Assembly (NCBI RefSeq): GCF_014202425.1
Contig: NZ_JACHGT010000017.1
Coordinates: 124,001 to 188,000, forward strand
Direction of reading: 5' to 3'
Origin: Phytomonospora endophytica
Lineage (GTDB): Bacteria; Actinomycetota; Actinomycetes; Mycobacteriales; Micromonosporaceae
Length of the DNA: 64,000 bases
Part shown: positions 13,353 to 23,683 of the stretch, piece after piece
Layout: each line of letters starts with the position of its first letter
Position numbering within the stretch: the stretch's first letter is position 1
Made by a program: the position numbers and the translations under genes
Notes under the pieces: model-generated
Told to the model about the DNA's origin: nothing
Database searches by the model: none
The model's input: only the letters and a program-made list of their open reading frames with translations

Positions 13353-16821
<3,469 letters not shown>

Positions 16822-17019
16822 GGCGGTGCCTTTCCACTCGGACGTGGCCGGATCGCGAACTCGGGCGTGGCGGCTCGACTCGTCGTCCGCGCCGGCCTGT
16901 GCTGAGGAGTCGCCGGGACTCCGTGGACCTTGCCGGTGAACGGTGTTGCGAGCACACCGCCGCACCGGAAACGGGTACGCCGCGGGATCGGAACCCAACG
17001 CCCCGCGACGGACTATTTT

Positions 17020-17136: not shown

Positions 17137-18177
17137 ATGGCTTCCACAGGCGACGAGGCTCAGCCGGGCGGCGAGCCGCTGACCATCGCGCAGCTCGCCG
17201 AACGCGCGGGGGTCTCCATCGCGACGGTGTCCAAAGTGGTCAACGGCCGCCTCGACGTCGCCCCCGACACCCGCGCGCTCATCGAAAGCCTCATCCGACG
17301 GCACGGCTACCGCCGCAAGCGGCGCGCCAGCGAGGCCGCACCGCTCCTGGAAGTCGTCTTCGGCGAACTGCACGGGCTCTACGCCGTCGAGATCCTCAAC
17401 GGAGTCGGCCACGTCGCCCGCGACCACAACCTCGGCGTCGTGGTGTCCGAACTGCACGGCCGCCACACCCCCGGCCGCGGCTGGTTCGAAGACGTCCTGA
17501 CCCGCCGCCCGATCGGCGTCATCGCGGTGTTCGCGAGCCTCACCGCGGACCACGCCGAGCGGCTCCGCGGCCGCGGCGTGCCCCTGGTGCTCCTCGACCC
17601 GACCGGCGACCTCGACGACGGGATCCCGTCGGTGGGCGCCGGCAACTGGAACGGCGGCCTGGCCGCCACCCGGCACCTGCTCGCCCTCGGTCACACCAGG
17701 ATCGCGGTGCTGACCGGACCGCCGCACATGCTCTCCAGCAGGGCGAGGCTCGACGGCTACCGCACGGCGATGGACCTGGCCGGTGTGCCCGTCGACCCGG
17801 CACTGGTCCGCATCGGCGACTTCCAGATCGCCGACGGCCGGCACCTCACCCGCGAACTGCTGCGCCTCCCCGAACCACCCACCGCCGTCTTCGCCTGCAA
17901 CGACGCCGAAGCCCTCGGCGTCTACCAGGCCGCCACCGAAGCCGGCCTGCGGATTCCCGACGATCTCAGCGTCGTCGGCTTCGACGACCTCCCGATGGCC
18001 GAATGGAACATCCCCCCGCTCACCACCGTCCGCCAGCCGCTCAGGGAAATGGCGGTGAGCGCGGCGACGATGCTGGTCACCCTGGCACAAGGGGAAGAAC
18101 CACCGCAGCGCCGGGTGGAACTCGCCACCGAGCTGATCGTGCGCAGCAGCACCGCCCCGCCCGCGAAAGCACGGTAG
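17137..18177 (+). CDS. LacI-family transcription regulator, probable xylan/arabinoxylan repressor
   Basis: The 346-residue protein starts at ATG 17137; no clear ribosome-binding site precedes it, so leaderless or weak translation is possible. A LacI helix-turn-helix (residues 15-45, TIAQLAERAGVSIATVSKVVNG) and hinge helix are followed by a periplasmic-binding-protein-like sensor (about 68-335) with RLDGYRTAM and DDLSVVGFDDLPMAEW, the usual family landmarks. It resembles xylan-locus repressors that release DNA on binding xylo- or arabino-oligosaccharides. It is divergent from the GH43-GH10-GH27-esterase cluster and followed by the sigma-CBM42 gene. Candidate sites flank it at 17020-17042 and 18224-18234. 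Confidence 0.9.
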   Translation: MASTGDEAQPGGEPLTIAQLAERAGVSIATVSKVVNGRLDVAPDTRALIESLIRRHGYRRKRRASEAAPLLEVVFGELHGLYAVEILNGVGHVARDHNLGVVVSELHGRHTPGRGWFEDVLTRRPIGVIAVFASLTADHAERLRGRGVPLVLLDPTGDLDDGIPSVGAGNWNGGLAATRHLLALGHTRIAVLTGPPHMLSSRARLDGYRTAMDLAGVPVDPALVRIGDFQIADGRHLTRELLRLPEPPTAVFACNDAEALGVYQAATEAGLRIPDDLSVVGFDDLPMAEWNIPPLTTVRQPLREMAVSAATMLVTLAQGEEPPQRRVELATELIVRSSTAPPAKAR

Positions 18178-18334: not shown

Positions 18335-18465
18335 GGCTGCCGACACGCGATGGGACCGCTCCCACGACTCTGCGTGAGCCGTCGGCACGGCCCACGGACG
18401 CCGGAAGGCGGCGCAGGTCTCCGCACGTCCGCCAGGCCGGCGGGCACTCCTCAAGGTGGTCGGGA

Positions 18466-19977
18466 ATGCGCATCATGGACGCCAGCCACGTCGACCTCGT
18501 CGTCGCCGCCCAGGGAGGCGACGACCGGGCACGCGACGCACTGATCGCGATGTACCTGCCGCTGATCTACAACGTCGTCGGACACGCTCTTCGCGGCCAC
18601 GCCGACGTCGACGACGTCGTGCAGGAAACCCTCCTGCGCGCCGTTCGCGACCTGCCCACCGTGCGCGACCCGAACAGCTTCCGGTCCTGGCTGGTGGCCA
18701 TCGCGATCCACCAGATCAGCAGCCACATGCGCCGACGCCGTACCGGCGGCGAAGTCCTCGCCGTCTTCGACGAGCGATCCGAGCCACCGCACCCGCAGCC
18801 GGGATTCGAGGAGACGACCATCCTCCGGCTCGAACTGTCCGAACAGCGCCGCCACGTCGCCCAGGCGAGCCGCTGGCTCGACCCCGAACACCGAACCACC
18901 CTCGCGCTGTGGTGGCAGGAGGCCACCGGCACCATGAACCGACGCGACCTCGCCGCCGCACTCGGCGTGAGCGCCGCCCACGCCGGAGTCCGGCTCCAGC
19001 GCATGCGCGAACAACTCGACCAGGGCCGCGCGATCGCCGCCGCGCTCGCCACCGAACCGGCCTGCCCGCGACTGACCGCCGAAATCGACGGCTGGGACGG
19101 CCGGCACAGTCCACTGTGGCGCAAACGCATCGCCCGGCACGTCCGCGACTGCCCGGCCTGCCGGACCGCGGCCGGATCCCGCCTTCCACTCGAACGCCTC
19201 CTGCTCACCTTCGCACCCCTCACCGTCCCCGCAGGACTCGCCGCCGGACTCATCGCCAAAGAACTGACGACCGCCGCGACGGTCACCGCCACCGGGATCA
19301 AGTTCGGCCTACTCGGAAAACTCGCCCAGGCGCTCATCTCCCACCCGGTCGCCGGAACGCTCACCGGGACCGCGCTCGTCGTCGCCGGCACGGTCGCCTA
19401 CGTCACCGCCCCCGAACCCCGGCCACCGGTCGTGGTCACCGCCCCGACAGCGGGCAAGCCCGAACAACTCCCGGCCACCCCCCAGGAAACCCCCGTCTCC
19501 CCACCACGCCCCTCCCCGTCCGACCCGAACCCACCGCGGAGCCCGCTCGTCCCGCACGGGTCCTGGTCACTGGAGTCGGTCGCCGCCAACGGCCAATACC
19601 TCACCCACACCGGAGACCTCGCCGCCCTCGCGGTGGCCGGCGACGAGCAGAACCGCCGGCGCGCCACCTTCACCGTCGTCGCAGGACTCGCCGACCCCGA
19701 CTGCGTCACCTTCCGCGCCGCCGACGGCCGCTACCTCCGCCACTACGAACTCCGCCTGCGACTCGACGCAGACCAGGGCACCGCCCTGTTCCGCGAGGAC
19801 GCCACCTTCTGCCCCGTCGCCGGAGCGACGGACGGATCGGTGACCCTGCGAGCGCACAACTACCCCGGGTCGGTCATGCGATCCCGCGACGGCGGCATCT
19901 TCCTCGACGGCTCCGACGGCAGCGAGGTCTTCGCCCGCGAGAGCTCCTTCGTCATCCGCGACCCGCTCACCGGCTGA
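18466..19977 (+). CDS. ECF sigma factor fused to zinc-finger-like motif, transmembrane helix and extracellular CBM42 (AbfB) domain
   Basis: The 503-residue protein starts at ATG 18466, after AAGGTGG. Sigma region 2 spans about 10-92 (VDDVVQETLLRAVRDLP), region 4 about 130-186 (NRRDLAAALGVSAAHAGVRL). An H-x3-C-x2-C motif (His225, Cys229, Cys232) resembles the zf-HC2 motif of anti-sigma factors. Hydrophobic segments follow, the best transmembrane helix being about 293-314, then a Pro-rich linker (316-362). Residues 364-503 form an AbfB/CBM42 beta-trefoil with repeated LFREDATFCP-like motifs; CBM42 binds arabinofuranose side chains. The predicted topology is sigma inside, CBM outside. It is flanked by lacI and GH127/GH62, so arabinoxylan sensing is the obvious inference. 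Domain calls are firm, the mechanism is not. Confidence 0.9.
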   Translation: MRIMDASHVDLVVAAQGGDDRARDALIAMYLPLIYNVVGHALRGHADVDDVVQETLLRAVRDLPTVRDPNSFRSWLVAIAIHQISSHMRRRRTGGEVLAVFDERSEPPHPQPGFEETTILRLELSEQRRHVAQASRWLDPEHRTTLALWWQEATGTMNRRDLAAALGVSAAHAGVRLQRMREQLDQGRAIAAALATEPACPRLTAEIDGWDGRHSPLWRKRIARHVRDCPACRTAAGSRLPLERLLLTFAPLTVPAGLAAGLIAKELTTAATVTATGIKFGLLGKLAQALISHPVAGTLTGTALVVAGTVAYVTAPEPRPPVVVTAPTAGKPEQLPATPQETPVSPPRPSPSDPNPPRSPLVPHGSWSLESVAANGQYLTHTGDLAALAVAGDEQNRRRATFTVVAGLADPDCVTFRAADGRYLRHYELRLRLDADQGTALFREDATFCPVAGATDGSVTLRAHNYPGSVMRSRDGGIFLDGSDGSEVFARESSFVIRDPLTG

Positions 19978-19998: not shown

Positions 19999-20182
19999 CG
20001 TACCGGAGCCCCCGTCCATAACGACTTCTCCCGGTGATCCCTCTCACCGAGACGACGCAGCGAACACGCCGGGATTTCCGTTACGACAAGGCCACCGGCG
20101 GTGCCTCCTCTCATAGACGGACCGTTCACGTCGCCGACCGGGTTGGGCCGGCCGGCGCCGCCCACGTCCCCCGGGAGCACCC

Positions 20183-22108
20183 ATGTCCTCGACCCTCGAC
20201 CGCCGCCGCCTGCTCCAAGCGGCCGGAGCCGGCGCCGTCGCCGCCGTCGCCCCGGCCACCGAAGCGACCCCCGGCCCGGCGTCCCTCACCCCCGCACGCT
20301 CCGACATCGGCGTCTCGGCCTACGCCTTCGCACTCGGCCGAGTACGGCTCGGCCCGAGCCGGTGGCTCGACAACCAGCACCGCACCCTGGCCTACCTGCG
20401 CTTCGTCGACGCCGAACGGCTGCTCTACAACTTCCGGGCGAACCACCGCCTCTCCACCAACGGCGCGACCGCCAACGGCGGCTGGGACGCACCCGCCTTC
20501 CCCTTCCGCACCCACGTGCAAGGGCACTTCCTCACCGCCTGGGCACAGGCCTACGCCGCCCTCGGCGACACCGTCTGCCGCGACAAGGCCGACCGGATGG
20601 TCACCGAACTCGCCGGATGCCAGGCCAACAACAGCGCGGCCGGATTCGGCGCCGGCTACCTCGCGGGCTTCCCCGAATCCGACTTCACCGCACTTGAGGC
20701 CGGCACACTCACCAACGGCAACGTGCCCTACTACTGCATCCACAAGACCCTCACCGGTCTCCTCGACGTCTGGCGCCACCTCGGCAGCACGCGGGCCCGC
20801 GCCGTCCTTCTCGCGCTCGCCGGCTGGGTCGACGACCGCACCAAGCGCTTGAGCGCCGCCCGGATGCGGGCCGTCCTGCGGACCGAGTTCGGCGGGATGA
20901 ACGCCGTACTGACCGACCTGTACCAGCAGACCGGCGACGCCCGATGGCTGGCGGTCGCGCAACGCTTCGACCACGCCGCCGTCTTCGACCCGCTGGCCTC
21001 CAACCAGGACCGGCTCAACGGCCTGCACGCCAACACGCAGGTTCCCCAGTGGATCGGCGCCGCACGCGAGTACAAGGCCACCGGCACCACCCGCTATCGC
21101 GACATAGCGGCGAACGCCTGGAACTTCTGCGTCGGCGCGCACAGCTACGCCATCGGCGGCAACAGCCAGGCCGAACACTTCCGGGCGCCCCACGCGATCG
21201 CCGGCCACCTGACGGCCGACACCTGCGAACTCTGCAACACCCACAACATGCTGACCCTGACCCGTGAACTGTGGCAGCTCAACCCCGGCAGGGTCGCCTA
21301 CGTCGACTACTACGAACGCGCGCTGCTCAACCACGTCATCGGCGCCCAGAACCCCTCCGACCCCCACGGGCACATCACCTACTTCACCCCGCTCAACCCC
21401 GGCGGCCGACGCGGCCGTGGACCCGCATGGGGCGGAGGTACCTGGAGCACCGACTACCAGTCGTTCTGGTGCTGCCAGGGCACCGGCGTCGAGGCGGGCA
21501 CCAGGCTCACCGACTCCGTCTACTTCCACAACGGCACCACGCTGACGGTCAACCTGTTCCTCCCCTCGGTCCTCGACTGGAACCAGCGCGGGATCACCGT
21601 CCGGCAGTCGACGGCCTACCCGGCGAGCGACACCACCGCCCTCCAGGTCACCGGCGACGTCGGCGGGTCCTGGTCGATGCGGATCCGCATCCCCGCCTGG
21701 ACCTCCGGCGCCACGATCGGCGTCAACGGCACCGCCCAGAACGTCACCGCCACACCCGGCACCTACGCGACACTCACCCGCTCGTGGACCTCCGGCGACA
21801 CCGTCACCGTCCGCCTGCCCATGAGGGTCGCCACGCACGCGGCCGACGACGACGCCGACCTCGCCGCGATCACCTACGGGCCCGCCGTGCTGTGCGGAAA
21901 CTACGGCGACACCGCCCTGAGCGCACCACCCGCCCTCGACGTCGCCTCGATCACCCGCACGAGCACGACCGCTCTGGCCTTCACCGCCACGGCCGACGGC
22001 AGACCGGTGCGCCTGACGCCTTTCCACGACGCACAGGGCTTCAACTACGCGGCCTACTGGCGCATCGGCGGCCGCTCGGCCGGCAACGGCACCGCCGAGC
22101 GCCTCTGA
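20183..22108 (+). CDS. Tat-exported GH127 beta-L-arabinofuranosidase
   Basis: The 641-residue product of ATG 20183 (CCGGGAG upstream) begins with a twin-arginine-type leader (DRRRLLQAAGAGAVAAVAPA, 6-25). The (alpha/alpha)6 barrel resembles HypBA1. The zinc/thiolate active site is visible as Glu349 and Cys351 in TCELCNTHN plus Cys430-Cys431 in FWCCQGTG. By analogy Cys430 is the nucleophile; Glu331 (AEHF) is the likely acid/base. A beta-sandwich C-domain follows from about 445. GH127 enzymes release beta-L-arabinofuranose, here plausibly from plant glycoproteins or hemicellulose side chains. An exported rather than cytoplasmic location is notable for the family. GH62 follows 42 bp downstream and is likely co-transcribed. 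Confidence 0.9.
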   Translation: MSSTLDRRRLLQAAGAGAVAAVAPATEATPGPASLTPARSDIGVSAYAFALGRVRLGPSRWLDNQHRTLAYLRFVDAERLLYNFRANHRLSTNGATANGGWDAPAFPFRTHVQGHFLTAWAQAYAALGDTVCRDKADRMVTELAGCQANNSAAGFGAGYLAGFPESDFTALEAGTLTNGNVPYYCIHKTLTGLLDVWRHLGSTRARAVLLALAGWVDDRTKRLSAARMRAVLRTEFGGMNAVLTDLYQQTGDARWLAVAQRFDHAAVFDPLASNQDRLNGLHANTQVPQWIGAAREYKATGTTRYRDIAANAWNFCVGAHSYAIGGNSQAEHFRAPHAIAGHLTADTCELCNTHNMLTLTRELWQLNPGRVAYVDYYERALLNHVIGAQNPSDPHGHITYFTPLNPGGRRGRGPAWGGGTWSTDYQSFWCCQGTGVEAGTRLTDSVYFHNGTTLTVNLFLPSVLDWNQRGITVRQSTAYPASDTTALQVTGDVGGSWSMRIRIPAWTSGATIGVNGTAQNVTATPGTYATLTRSWTSGDTVTVRLPMRVATHAADDDADLAAITYGPAVLCGNYGDTALSAPPALDVASITRTSTTALAFTATADGRPVRLTPFHDAQGFNYAAYWRIGGRSAGNGTAERL

Positions 22109-22150: not shown

Positions 22151-23683
22151 ATGCGCGACCATCTCCGGTGGTTCGCCCGGCTCACGGCACTGACGCTGCT
22201 GGCCGGGACGATCACCTTGACCGCGACCGCCGAGACGCCCGCCGCGGCCGACCCGCCGCCGCGCGCCGCGGCCGTGAGCTTCACCAGCACGATGATCGGC
22301 CAGGCCTCCGGCACCTGCGCCGACGTGCCCAACGGTTCGGCCGCCAACGGCACCCAGCTCCAGATCTACTCGTGCTGGGGCGGCACCAACCAGAACTTCA
22401 CCTTCGCGCCGGCCGCCGGAACGGCCGACCAGTACAACATCCGGACCGTGGCGGGCTCCTGCGTCGACGTCTCCGGCGCATCCTCGGCCGACAACGCCGC
22501 GGTCGTGCAGTGGACCTGCCACGCCAACAACAACCAGCGCTTCCGGCTTGCGCCGGTGACGGTCAGCGGCGCGACGAACACCTTCAACGTCGTGGCCGTC
22601 CACTCCGGCAAGTGCGTCGCGCCCAGGGCCGACGCCACCGCCAACACCACCCTGCTCGTGCAGGCGCCGTGCGGCACCGCCGCCTCGCGCGTCTGGCGGG
22701 TCCCGGGCTACACCTCCGGCGGTTCGGGCTCACTGCCGAGCAGCTACCAGTGGAGTTCCAGCGGTTCGCTGGTGGGACCGAAGAACGACGGCCGCGGCAT
22801 CGCCGGCATCAAGGATCCGACGGTCGTCCAGCACAACGGCCGCTACCACGTCTTCGCCAGCACCGCGAAGTCCGCGGGCTACAACCTGGTCTACTTCAAC
22901 TTCACCGACTGGTCCCAGGCGAACAGCGCGACCTTCCACTATCTCGACCAGTCCCCCGTCGGGGCCGGGTACCGAGCCGCGCCGCAGGTCTTCTACTTCG
23001 CACCCCAGGGCCTGTGGTACCTCGTCTACCAGACCGGCAACGCGTCCTTCTCCACCAACCCCGACATCTCCAACCCCAACGGGTGGACCGCTCCGCGCCA
23101 CTTCTACTCCGGCATGCCGCAGATCATCCGCGACAACATCGGCAACGGCTACTGGGTCGACATGTGGGTCATCTGCGACGCGGCGAACTGCTACCTGTTC
23201 TCCTCCGACGACAACGGCCACCTCTACCGCTCCGAGACCAGCCTGGCGAACTTCCCCAACGGGATGACCAACACCGTCATCGCCGCCCAGGACCCCAACC
23301 GCAACAACCTGTTCGAGGCCAGCAACGTCTACAAGGTCCAAGGCTCCAACCAGTATCTGCTGCTCGTCGAGGCGATCGGCTCCGACGGCCGCCGATGGTT
23401 CCGGTCGTGGACCTCGTCGGCGATCAACGGGGCATGGACGCCGCTCGCGGCCAGTGAGGCCAACCCCTTCGCACGCGCCAACAACACCACGTTCGCCGGC
23501 ACTGCGTGGACGAGGGACATCAGCCACGGTGAACTGATCCGCGCGGGCACCGACCAGACGCTCACCGTCAGCCCATGCCAGATGCGTTACCTGTACCAGG
23601 GCCTCGACCCGAACGCCGGCGGCGACTACAACAGCCTGCCCTGGCGCCTCGGCCTGCTGACCCAGACGAACTCGACCTGCTGA
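22151..23683 (+). CDS. Secreted GH62 alpha-L-arabinofuranosidase with N-terminal CBM13
   Basis: AGGAGGAAG precedes ATG 22151. The 510-residue protein has a signal peptide (to about AAA33), an N-terminal ricin-type trefoil (about 43-186) and a GH62 five-bladed propeller (about 195-510). Signature elements are SSYQWSSSGSLVGPK, catalytic base Asp222 (GIKDPTVV), Asp337 (YWVDMWVICD), acid Glu389 (LFEASNVYK), and a C-terminal NSLPWRLGLLTQ. GH62 removes alpha-1,2/1,3-linked arabinose from singly substituted xylose in arabinoxylan. It differs from the minus-strand enzymes in carrying the lectin domain at the N-terminus. A strong terminator follows, so GH127-GH62 form a two-gene unit. Confidence 0.95.
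   Translation: MRDHLRWFARLTALTLLAGTITLTATAETPAAADPPPRAAAVSFTSTMIGQASGTCADVPNGSAANGTQLQIYSCWGGTNQNFTFAPAAGTADQYNIRTVAGSCVDVSGASSADNAAVVQWTCHANNNQRFRLAPVTVSGATNTFNVVAVHSGKCVAPRADATANTTLLVQAPCGTAASRVWRVPGYTSGGSGSLPSSYQWSSSGSLVGPKNDGRGIAGIKDPTVVQHNGRYHVFASTAKSAGYNLVYFNFTDWSQANSATFHYLDQSPVGAGYRAAPQVFYFAPQGLWYLVYQTGNASFSTNPDISNPNGWTAPRHFYSGMPQIIRDNIGNGYWVDMWVICDAANCYLFSSDDNGHLYRSETSLANFPNGMTNTVIAAQDPNRNNLFEASNVYKVQGSNQYLLLVEAIGSDGRRWFRSWTSSAINGAWTPLAASEANPFARANNTTFAGTAWTRDISHGELIRAGTDQTLTVSPCQMRYLYQGLDPNAGGDYNSLPWRLGLLTQTNSTC

Follow-up and report, generated by a model that had tools for sequence, protein, structure and literature searches.

Why would a sigma factor carry a carbohydrate-binding module on its own polypeptide chain, and which genes would such a protein control? 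The question is raised by an open reading frame of 503 amino acids (18466-19977, forward strand) that runs from ATG to stop with zero internal stops and has a possible alternative start at M4 (18475). It lies in the window analyzed here, a stretch of 64,000 nt from Phytomonospora endophytica (NZ_JACHGT010000017.1, 124,001-188,000 of the forward strand; assembly GCF_014202425.1), within the gene order GH27-CBM13, GH10-CBM13, GH43-CBM2, LacI, sensor, GH127, CBM13-GH62 and sugar-transporter genes. A sequence-only reading had proposed that the protein is a one-component polysaccharide sensor, with a sigma factor, a zinc-finger-like motif, a membrane helix and a CBM42 domain in one chain, and that it switches on the surrounding locus; it called for a domain search, a structure prediction and a search for the same architecture next to arabinofuranosidase genes.

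Domain architecture and its conservation

The protein, hereafter the sensor, is composed as follows:

18466..19977, + strand, fused ECF sigma factor, ZAS-type anti-sigma segment, membrane helix, Pro-rich stalk and CBM42 (503 aa)
18493..19050, + strand, ECF sigma regions 2 and 4, residues 10-195 (TIGR02937, Sigma70_r2, model helices)
19063..19176, + strand, putative ZAS-type zinc anti-sigma segment, residues 200-237 (C200-X24-H225-X3-C229-X2-C232; 66/66 copies)
19348..19404, + strand, probable single membrane helix, residues 295-313 (Kyte-Doolittle 1.61; low model confidence)
19405..19554, + strand, Pro-rich stalk, residues 314-363 (seen in the sequence)
19567..19956, + strand, CBM42/AbfB beta-trefoil, residues 368-497 (Pfam AbfB, E 1.3e-36)

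Copies of the sensor were drawn from the best 80 of 94 confirmed loci plus 30 loci among the matches listed (61 genomes), and a copy was counted as full-length when its frame covered the query from residue 30 or earlier to residue 480 or later. There were at least 66 full-length copies (54 Streptomyces, 2 Catellatospora, 1 Kitasatospora, 1 Micromonospora and 8 others); this number counts the copy of the window itself (L001), and L002 does not differ from L060, leaving 64 distinct others. The sigma-CBM42 fusion is thus widespread. Since the identical architecture recurs in many other genomes, chance fusion or a sequencing error is unlikely as its origin, and the 66 full-length copies rule out a chance fusion, a frame error or an assembly fusion. 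At three loci (L085, L086 and L118) the frame with the sigma part is not the one with the AbfB part; these are broken genes or sequencing errors. For comparison we used a sibling panel of 40 regions around the best matches listed among those in 61 genomes, in which the tails vary.

Within the sigma part, TIGR02937 covers residues 22-185 (E 8.4e-19, above cut-off) and Pfam Sigma70_r2 covers residues 26-92 (E 6.5e-15), and ECF sigma factors of the PDB align with the sensor up to residues 184-187. The Pfam scan returned no region-4 family for the sensor, so the region-4 call rests on TIGR02937, the PDB matches and the helices between residues 114 and 195 of an AlphaFold model. This model (23 sequences, mean pLDDT 67.3, pTM 0.34) contains helices between residues 4-99, 114-195 and 201-237 and a trefoil at 365-498, with pLDDT below 50 at 94-119, 243-261, 266-358 and 469-488. 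Its two helical blocks correspond to regions 2 and 4 with no region 3, the arrangement of ECF sigma factors. Foldseek paired the sigma part with such factors at an rmsd of 14-19, and the way its two sigma domains pack therefore differs from that in the ECF structures. The assignment of sigma regions 2 and 4 to residues 10-186 in the sequence-only reading therefore stands, with region 4 lacking a Pfam match, and the domain search recovered both Sigma70_r2 and AbfB by Pfam.

The H-x3-C-x2-C motif noted earlier at residues 225-232 was placed exactly, and belongs to a larger set of four residues that includes C200. Both this motif and the three Cys columns (C200, C229 and C232) were present in 66/66 full-length copies, the distance from the first Cys to the His being 25 in 65 copies and 22 in one. 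Among the siblings with varied tails, H-x3-C-x2-C was found in 40/40, with a Cys 24-26 residues before the His in 36/40. The model blocks at residues 201-240 reached pLDDT 77-92, and no zinc-finger Pfam family scored above cut-off in the sensor (best zf-tcix, E 0.081). The C200/H225/C229/C232 layout presumably resembles the ligand layout of ZAS anti-sigma factors such as RsrA, and the segment after region 4 is read as a putative built-in anti-sigma segment of ZAS type.

The hydrophobic helix that had been claimed at residues 293-314 coincides with a Kyte-Doolittle peak at 295-313, but at 1.61 this peak is weaker than claimed, and the model is unsure of residues 266-358. A second hydrophobic stretch lies at residues 245-263 (1.90). 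Measured against ECF52/ECF53-type proteins, with one or two membrane helices, both values are marginal, and a 19-residue stretch of at least 1.6 starting at 266-380 was found in 39/66 copies. Such a peak, starting between 266 and 340, was found in 37/40 siblings, and the mean net charge around the hydrophobic stretch in the 66 close copies was +1.0 before it and -0.3 after it. Membrane insertion is therefore only weakly predicted, and a single crossing with the CBM outside would be the simplest reading of the topology; if both stretches crossed the membrane, the CBM would end inside the cell. One sibling frame of 1039 residues with an AbfB end (L143:7870-10986) has its sole strong hydrophobic stretch at 801-819, far from the zinc segment. 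The stalk contained more than 20% Pro in 51/66 copies.

The Pro-rich stalk and the AbfB/CBM42 domain, the latter assigned earlier to residues 364-503, were both recovered, and the predicted trefoil matched the solved CBM42 structures 6sxt, 9fnk (the CBM42 of RsgI5) and 3kmv in Foldseek. H426 and D445, both in the middle repeat, and C413 and C449 were each invariant in 66/66 copies; D481 was present in 65/66. The solved arabinofuranosidase B (1wd3) has cysteines at the positions aligned with C413 and C449, a pair that would be compatible with an extracellular disulfide. CBM42 is described as having up to three pockets, of which one may be nonfunctional, and Gln, His and Asp are named in one CBM42 pocket of SaAraf43A (PMC12493170). 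By fold and by sequence the tail is a trefoil with sugar pockets, the His of the last (gamma) repeat, present in 50/66 copies, being Ser473 in the window protein; its sugar-contacting residues are putative.

Tail types and neighboring genes

Tails in the sibling panel were typed by BLAST clusters, with 10/40 scanned by Pfam, and L118 was assigned to the CBM42 type even though a separate frame holds its AbfB part. The Pfam types were Glyco_hydro_cc, right-handed beta-helix, CAP and AbfB, several tails being without a family. The own genome holds a paralogue (G000:C10:74725-75480; L111:8126-9502) with the same sigma-ZAS-helix core and a CAP (cysteine-rich secretory protein) tail. In a tree of 48 sigma domains (the 40 panel loci less L147, 8 of the copies from the 80 loci and the window protein), the sigma domain of the window grouped with those of Streptomyces, Catellatospora, Micromonospora and L146 (support 99/97), and 12 other CBM42 sensors fell outside this clade. 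The CBM42 label changed 4 times on the best tree, and at least 2 of these changes are forced by well-supported branches; there has been more than one gain or loss of a tail.

The genes and sites near the sensor are listed below:

13353..14834, - strand, GH10-CBM13 xylanase, same locus (Pfam; no candidate promoter found)
14845..16998, - strand, GH43-CBM2, same locus (Pfam; no candidate promoter found)
17137..18177, + strand, LacI-family regulator that may control the sensor gene (Pfam LacI and Peripla_BP_3)
18351..18364, + strand, LacI-type palindrome TGGGACCGCTCCCA, 115 bp before the sigma start, between the LacI and sensor genes
20034..20047, + strand, CRP-type dyad GTGA-N6-TCAC, upstream of the candidate promoter
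20075-20108, + strand, extended motif TTTCCGTTACGA-N17-CCTCC (alignment of intergenic regions)
20080..20107, + strand, candidate target promoter GTTACG-N17-GCCTC, 75 bases before the GH127 start
20183..22108, + strand, GH127 beta-L-arabinofuranosidase, predicted target (Pfam GH127, E 1.2e-104)
22151..23683, + strand, CBM13-GH62 arabinofuranosidase, predicted target (Pfam GH62, E 1.9e-70)

The CBM13-GH62 gene starts 42 bases after GH127 on the same strand. At 49/66 loci, the next called gene downstream of the sensor has both GH10 and GH62 relatives, and two such genes were typed by Pfam as GH10-CBM13-GH62 and GH10-GH62. Within the panel, relatives of GH10, GH43, GH62 or GH127 occurred in 9/15 regions with a CBM42 tail versus 1/25 others (Fisher 1.5e-4), and relatives of pectinesterase or pectate lyase in 6/7 regions with a beta-helix tail versus 1/33 others (Fisher 1.2e-5); these p-values are optimistic, because the queries came from loci of the group concerned, the loci share ancestry and some regions are from the same genome. 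In 6/15 CBM42-sensor regions of the panel no arabinoxylan enzyme was nearby. The link to arabinoxylan genes drawn in the sequence-only reading is now partly supported, by conserved neighbors and a candidate promoter.

For glycosidase-core tails, a Pfam scan of 7 neighboring frames at 5/7 loci found zero carbohydrate enzymes, one frame being without a family, and the tail-neighbor rule is not demonstrated for this type. The beta-helix sensors near pectinesterase or pectate lyase genes (L126, L127, L137, L139, L140 and L141) are likely pectin sensors. Another sibling (L133:8284-10023), whose tail matched no type, has a GH62 gene in its region, where the extended motif also occurs with 2 mismatches (6006, -), and is perhaps another arabinoxylan sensor.

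A promoter-like motif downstream of the sensor gene

When 20 intergenic regions (19 Streptomyces, 1 Kitasatospora) were aligned, a conserved block emerged that was present at no more than 13 of 40 mismatches in 53/66 loci, the window having 16 and L003 having 17; it runs on into TTTCYGTTACG and CCTCC at a fixed spacing, window and L003 included. GTTA[CT]G-N16/17-G[CT]CTC was found within 450 bp downstream of the sensor in 59/66 loci, with a spacing of 17 in 55 and 16 in 4, and elsewhere in those loci once in 2,401,256 strand-bases, counts that must be read knowing that the motif was learned on mostly the loci where it was counted and that the Streptomyces copies are related by descent. Three facts go beyond this circularity: the motif stays with the sensor, its extended form has its single best match at the sensor in the own genome and in 6 of 8 further genomes, and a related form occurs at the siblings. 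Downstream of the sensor, the reversed pattern and spacings of 10-11 or 22-23 were each found in 0/66 loci, and GTTA[CT]G alone occurred in 61 downstream regions and at 194 places elsewhere.

The seven loci of the 66 without the motif are L004, L005, L006, L008 and L016 (panel L115, L116, L117, L120 and L142), which lie outside the window's sigma clade; L032, a Streptomyces locus absent from the tree; and L084, which is inside the clade. Accordingly, 10 of 11 tree rows in the clade have the motif, and the 5 full-length copies placed elsewhere do not. The motif remained with the sensor as the next gene varied from GH10-GH62 to GH127 to GH74-like, and was also present where this gene was GH10 without GH62 in the region (L003/L146), a 310-aa LacI-clustered frame (L002/L060) or an untyped 348-aa frame (L080). 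In the Catellatospora loci L060 and L080, the frame after the promoter is followed by an alpha-L-fucosidase-type gene (typed by Pfam on L060, the L080 gene clustering with it) and not by arabinoxylan enzymes.

No second copy of the motif was found on either strand of the 64-kb window, the sole copy preceding GH127-GH62. The extended form occurred at 7 places in the own genome, 1 at 0 mismatches and 6 at 3 (reversed control 3), and at up to 2 mismatches at 25 places in 7 of 8 further genomes (reversed control 12), 18 of the 25 being away from the sensor. The copy beside the sensor was the sole 0-mismatch match in 5 genomes and the sole 1-mismatch match in G063; it was tied at 2 mismatches in G061 and was not found in G067. 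A wider regulon was rejected, the next best places in the own genome having 3 mismatches and the reversed controls reaching 3 and 12, with weaker sites possible. We read these results as suggesting one target per genome. The proposal that the sensor switches on the surrounding locus is consistent with a candidate promoter before GH127-GH62, but with a single copy in the window it was too wide.

Among the siblings, GTTATC-N16/17-GTCTC was found 52-104 bp upstream of the sensor in 8/40, all 8 with non-CBM42 tails, the distance being measured from the residue aligned with the first of the window protein; against a background of 0.0033 per 350 bp, true hits included, the binomial probability is 1e-12 to 3e-11. 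The broader GTTA[TC][CG]-N16/17-G[TC]CTC occurred 13 times in 1,377,654 strand-bases of the 40 regions: 8 upstream of sensors, 2 downstream (L145 and L146) and 3 others. One of the sibling sensors with the motif upstream (64 bp before its start, as GTTATC-N16-GTCTC) is the CAP-tail paralogue of the own genome, L111. The regions of beta-helix sensors had no GTTA-type motif (0/7), and likewise none was found at the glycosidase-core loci L119 and L129. Single GTTA-type copies were seen 259 bp ahead of a frame that carries GH43, close to a CBM42 sensor from a different branch (L117:6710, -), 30 bp before a 466-aa frame divergent from the sensor (L123:8500, -) and opposite a called frame (L118, 10610). 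The sibling form GTTATC-N16-GGTCTC had 5 places at 1 mismatch in the own genome (control 1), which is nothing to build on.

We read the motif as a putative -35/-10 pair of this sigma group, which would lie upstream of the sensor gene in some branches and before the adjacent operon in the window's. A corresponding sensor-upstream motif for the CBM42 branch was rejected, since TTGGCTGCCNAC at 2 mismatches was at chance in the window (23 places versus 18.4 expected). Of 41 regions, those of the window, L145 and L146 have an exact TTGGCTGCC upstream of the sensor, and it is visible in L080. In most of the 20 aligned regions, among the rows listed, the sensor upstream resembles a vegetative promoter. 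Autoregulation is therefore not supported in the CBM42 branch.

Two other inputs may act at the locus. TGGGACCGCTCCCA, an exact LacI-type palindrome and the sole match to it in the window at fewer than 2 mismatches, resembles what we take to be CebR-type operators, and the LacI repressor may control how much sensor is made. With as many as 2 mismatches allowed, the window has 5 matches versus 4.8 expected, which is chance, and as a family-wide feature the palindrome was rejected, because most upstream regions lack it (present at no more than 2 mismatches in 6/41 panel and 6/66 anchor regions, both counts including the window). G[TC]GA-N6-TCAC was found within 450 bp downstream of 55/66 sensors and at 117 places elsewhere on that strand (1,215,478 bases). 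GTGA-N6-TCAC presumably matches the CRP-type consensus, and the target promoter may be under the influence of a CRP-type factor.

Proposed mechanism, alternatives and known systems

We consider it probable, at roughly two chances in three, that the protein belongs to the ECF52/ECF53 kind and, tethered to the membrane, senses polysaccharide decorated with arabinose as a one-component system in the way set out below. From the observed domains, motif and neighbors we infer how the chain lies in the membrane, that it binds its ligand, that the sigma domain is released and that this domain recognizes the motif. The sigma domain would be held inactive at the membrane by its own ZAS segment, and the extracellular CBM42 would bind arabinofuranosyl groups on (arabino)xylan. 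Binding would lead to cleavage in the stalk or helix, or to a change of shape, and so free the sigma domain, which would then transcribe from GTTACG-N17-GCCTC just downstream of its own gene and switch on the adjacent genes, GH127-GH62 here and a GH10-GH62 enzyme in 49/66 loci. In favor of this reading, SCO4117 shortened so as to lack its zinc finger, membrane region and carbohydrate module still modulates development (PMC5826349). The LacI repressor and the CRP-type factor may modulate this scheme, at the sensor level and the target promoter, respectively.

Release need not be proteolytic: the sigma domain could work while anchored, or be relieved by zinc loss or a conformational change. On inspection of the sequence no marked cleavage site was seen, and both routes have been proposed for ECF52 (PMC5826349), but the analogues RsgI and IutY are described as cut by membrane proteases (PMC8999054, PMC12203970), and we hold release without proteolysis to be rather unlikely. 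The conserved intergenic element could also serve a different regulator, whether LacI, a CRP-like factor or something else, with the sigma factor acting elsewhere or developmentally like SCO4117. A CRP-type dyad stands beside the motif, a LacI-type palindrome precedes the sensor gene, and SCO4117 (ECF52) is reported to act on development and antibiotics (PMC5826349). Against this, the motif consists of two blocks at near-fixed spacing, it stays with the sensor gene while the next gene varies, and its relative precedes sibling sigma genes, a placement that sigma promoters would be expected to have; a site for another regulator is, in our view, unlikely. That the tail merely attaches the cell to wall or substrate, the sigma factor being constitutive or stress-responsive, would agree with the occurrence of CBM42 domains otherwise in enzymes and with the altered sugar pocket of the window protein (Ser473). 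The fit of tail type to enzyme type in two separate classes (arabinoxylan and pectin) and the invariance of H426 and D445 in 66 copies make an attachment device improbable.

One described relative carries a smart00776 tail, which we take to be NPCBM. ECF52 is defined by the order zinc finger, membrane helix and carbohydrate-binding domain, and Pinto and Mascher proposed that it is activated via the carbohydrate module, by proteolysis or conformational change (PMC5826349). Its member SCO4117 of Streptomyces coelicolor is built like the sensor, with an ECF sigma factor, zinc finger, membrane region, Pro-rich extension and carbohydrate-binding domain, but it has the smart00776 tail, lies downstream of atrA, controls development and has the proposed motif CSGYN-17bp-SRHA (PMC5826349), whereas the window sensor has a CBM42 tail, a hemicellulase locus and GTTACG-N17-GCCTC. 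For ECF48, 52 and 53, a fusion with anti-sigma parts and proteolytic activation are expected (PMC8999054). ECF53 and ECF48 share with the sensor a predicted C-terminal anti-sigma fusion with a membrane helix, and some ECF52/53 share predicted hydrolase or carbohydrate-binding domains (PMC8999054, PMC10766802), which according to the second of these, a review on how hemicellulases are regulated, still await experimental validation (PMC10766802). The sensor has the ZAS segment after region 4, the Pro-rich extension and the C-terminal carbohydrate-binding domain of this type, an assignment made by architecture. The fused one-component idea of the sequence-only reading thus agrees with the architecture but is not new, having ECF52/ECF53 precedent (PMC5826349, PMC8999054, PMC10766802).

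The likeness it drew to clostridial RsgI holds as an analogy: RsgI5 of Clostridium thermocellum carries a CBM42 on an anti-sigma factor (RsgI_N-UNK-CBM42; PMC4711584), and its structure 9fnk matches the sensor's trefoil. SigI5 and RsgI5 are, however, separate proteins, whereas ECF regions 2 and 4 and the ZAS segment share one chain in the window protein; none of its 7 Pfam hits up to E 1 was an RsgI domain, the ECF sigma domain being in its place. IutY (ECF243) of Pseudomonas putida is likewise a sigma factor fused to a membrane anti-sigma domain, freed by Prc and RseP, but it serves iron-starvation signaling, and the passages that describe it mention no carbohydrate module (PMC8999054). The open-licence literature searched yielded no CBM42 member, target operon or promoter of the ECF52/ECF53 kind, and the additions made here are the spread, the promoter-like motif, the sibling motif and the tail-enzyme match.

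It is an even question whether these proteins form, in Actinobacteria, one family of tethered sigma factors built from modules. Its members would share the conserved sigma-ZAS-helix core and differ in an interchangeable extracellular module (CBM42, pectin-type beta-helix, glycosidase core, CAP domain or another) that is matched to a polysaccharide, and the window's CBM42 branch would drive one adjacent operon from GTTACG-N17-GCCTC. Such a family would be a plug-in counterpart, in one chain, of clostridial SigI/RsgI. The locus offers a concrete case: the class of ligand is likely, the target operon and the position of its promoter are predicted, and there is conservation in many named Streptomyces strains. 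If the reading is true, tail swapping would give one-gene polysaccharide-responsive switches, and the sensor would illustrate how plant polymers whose size keeps them out of the cell are sensed by soil bacteria.
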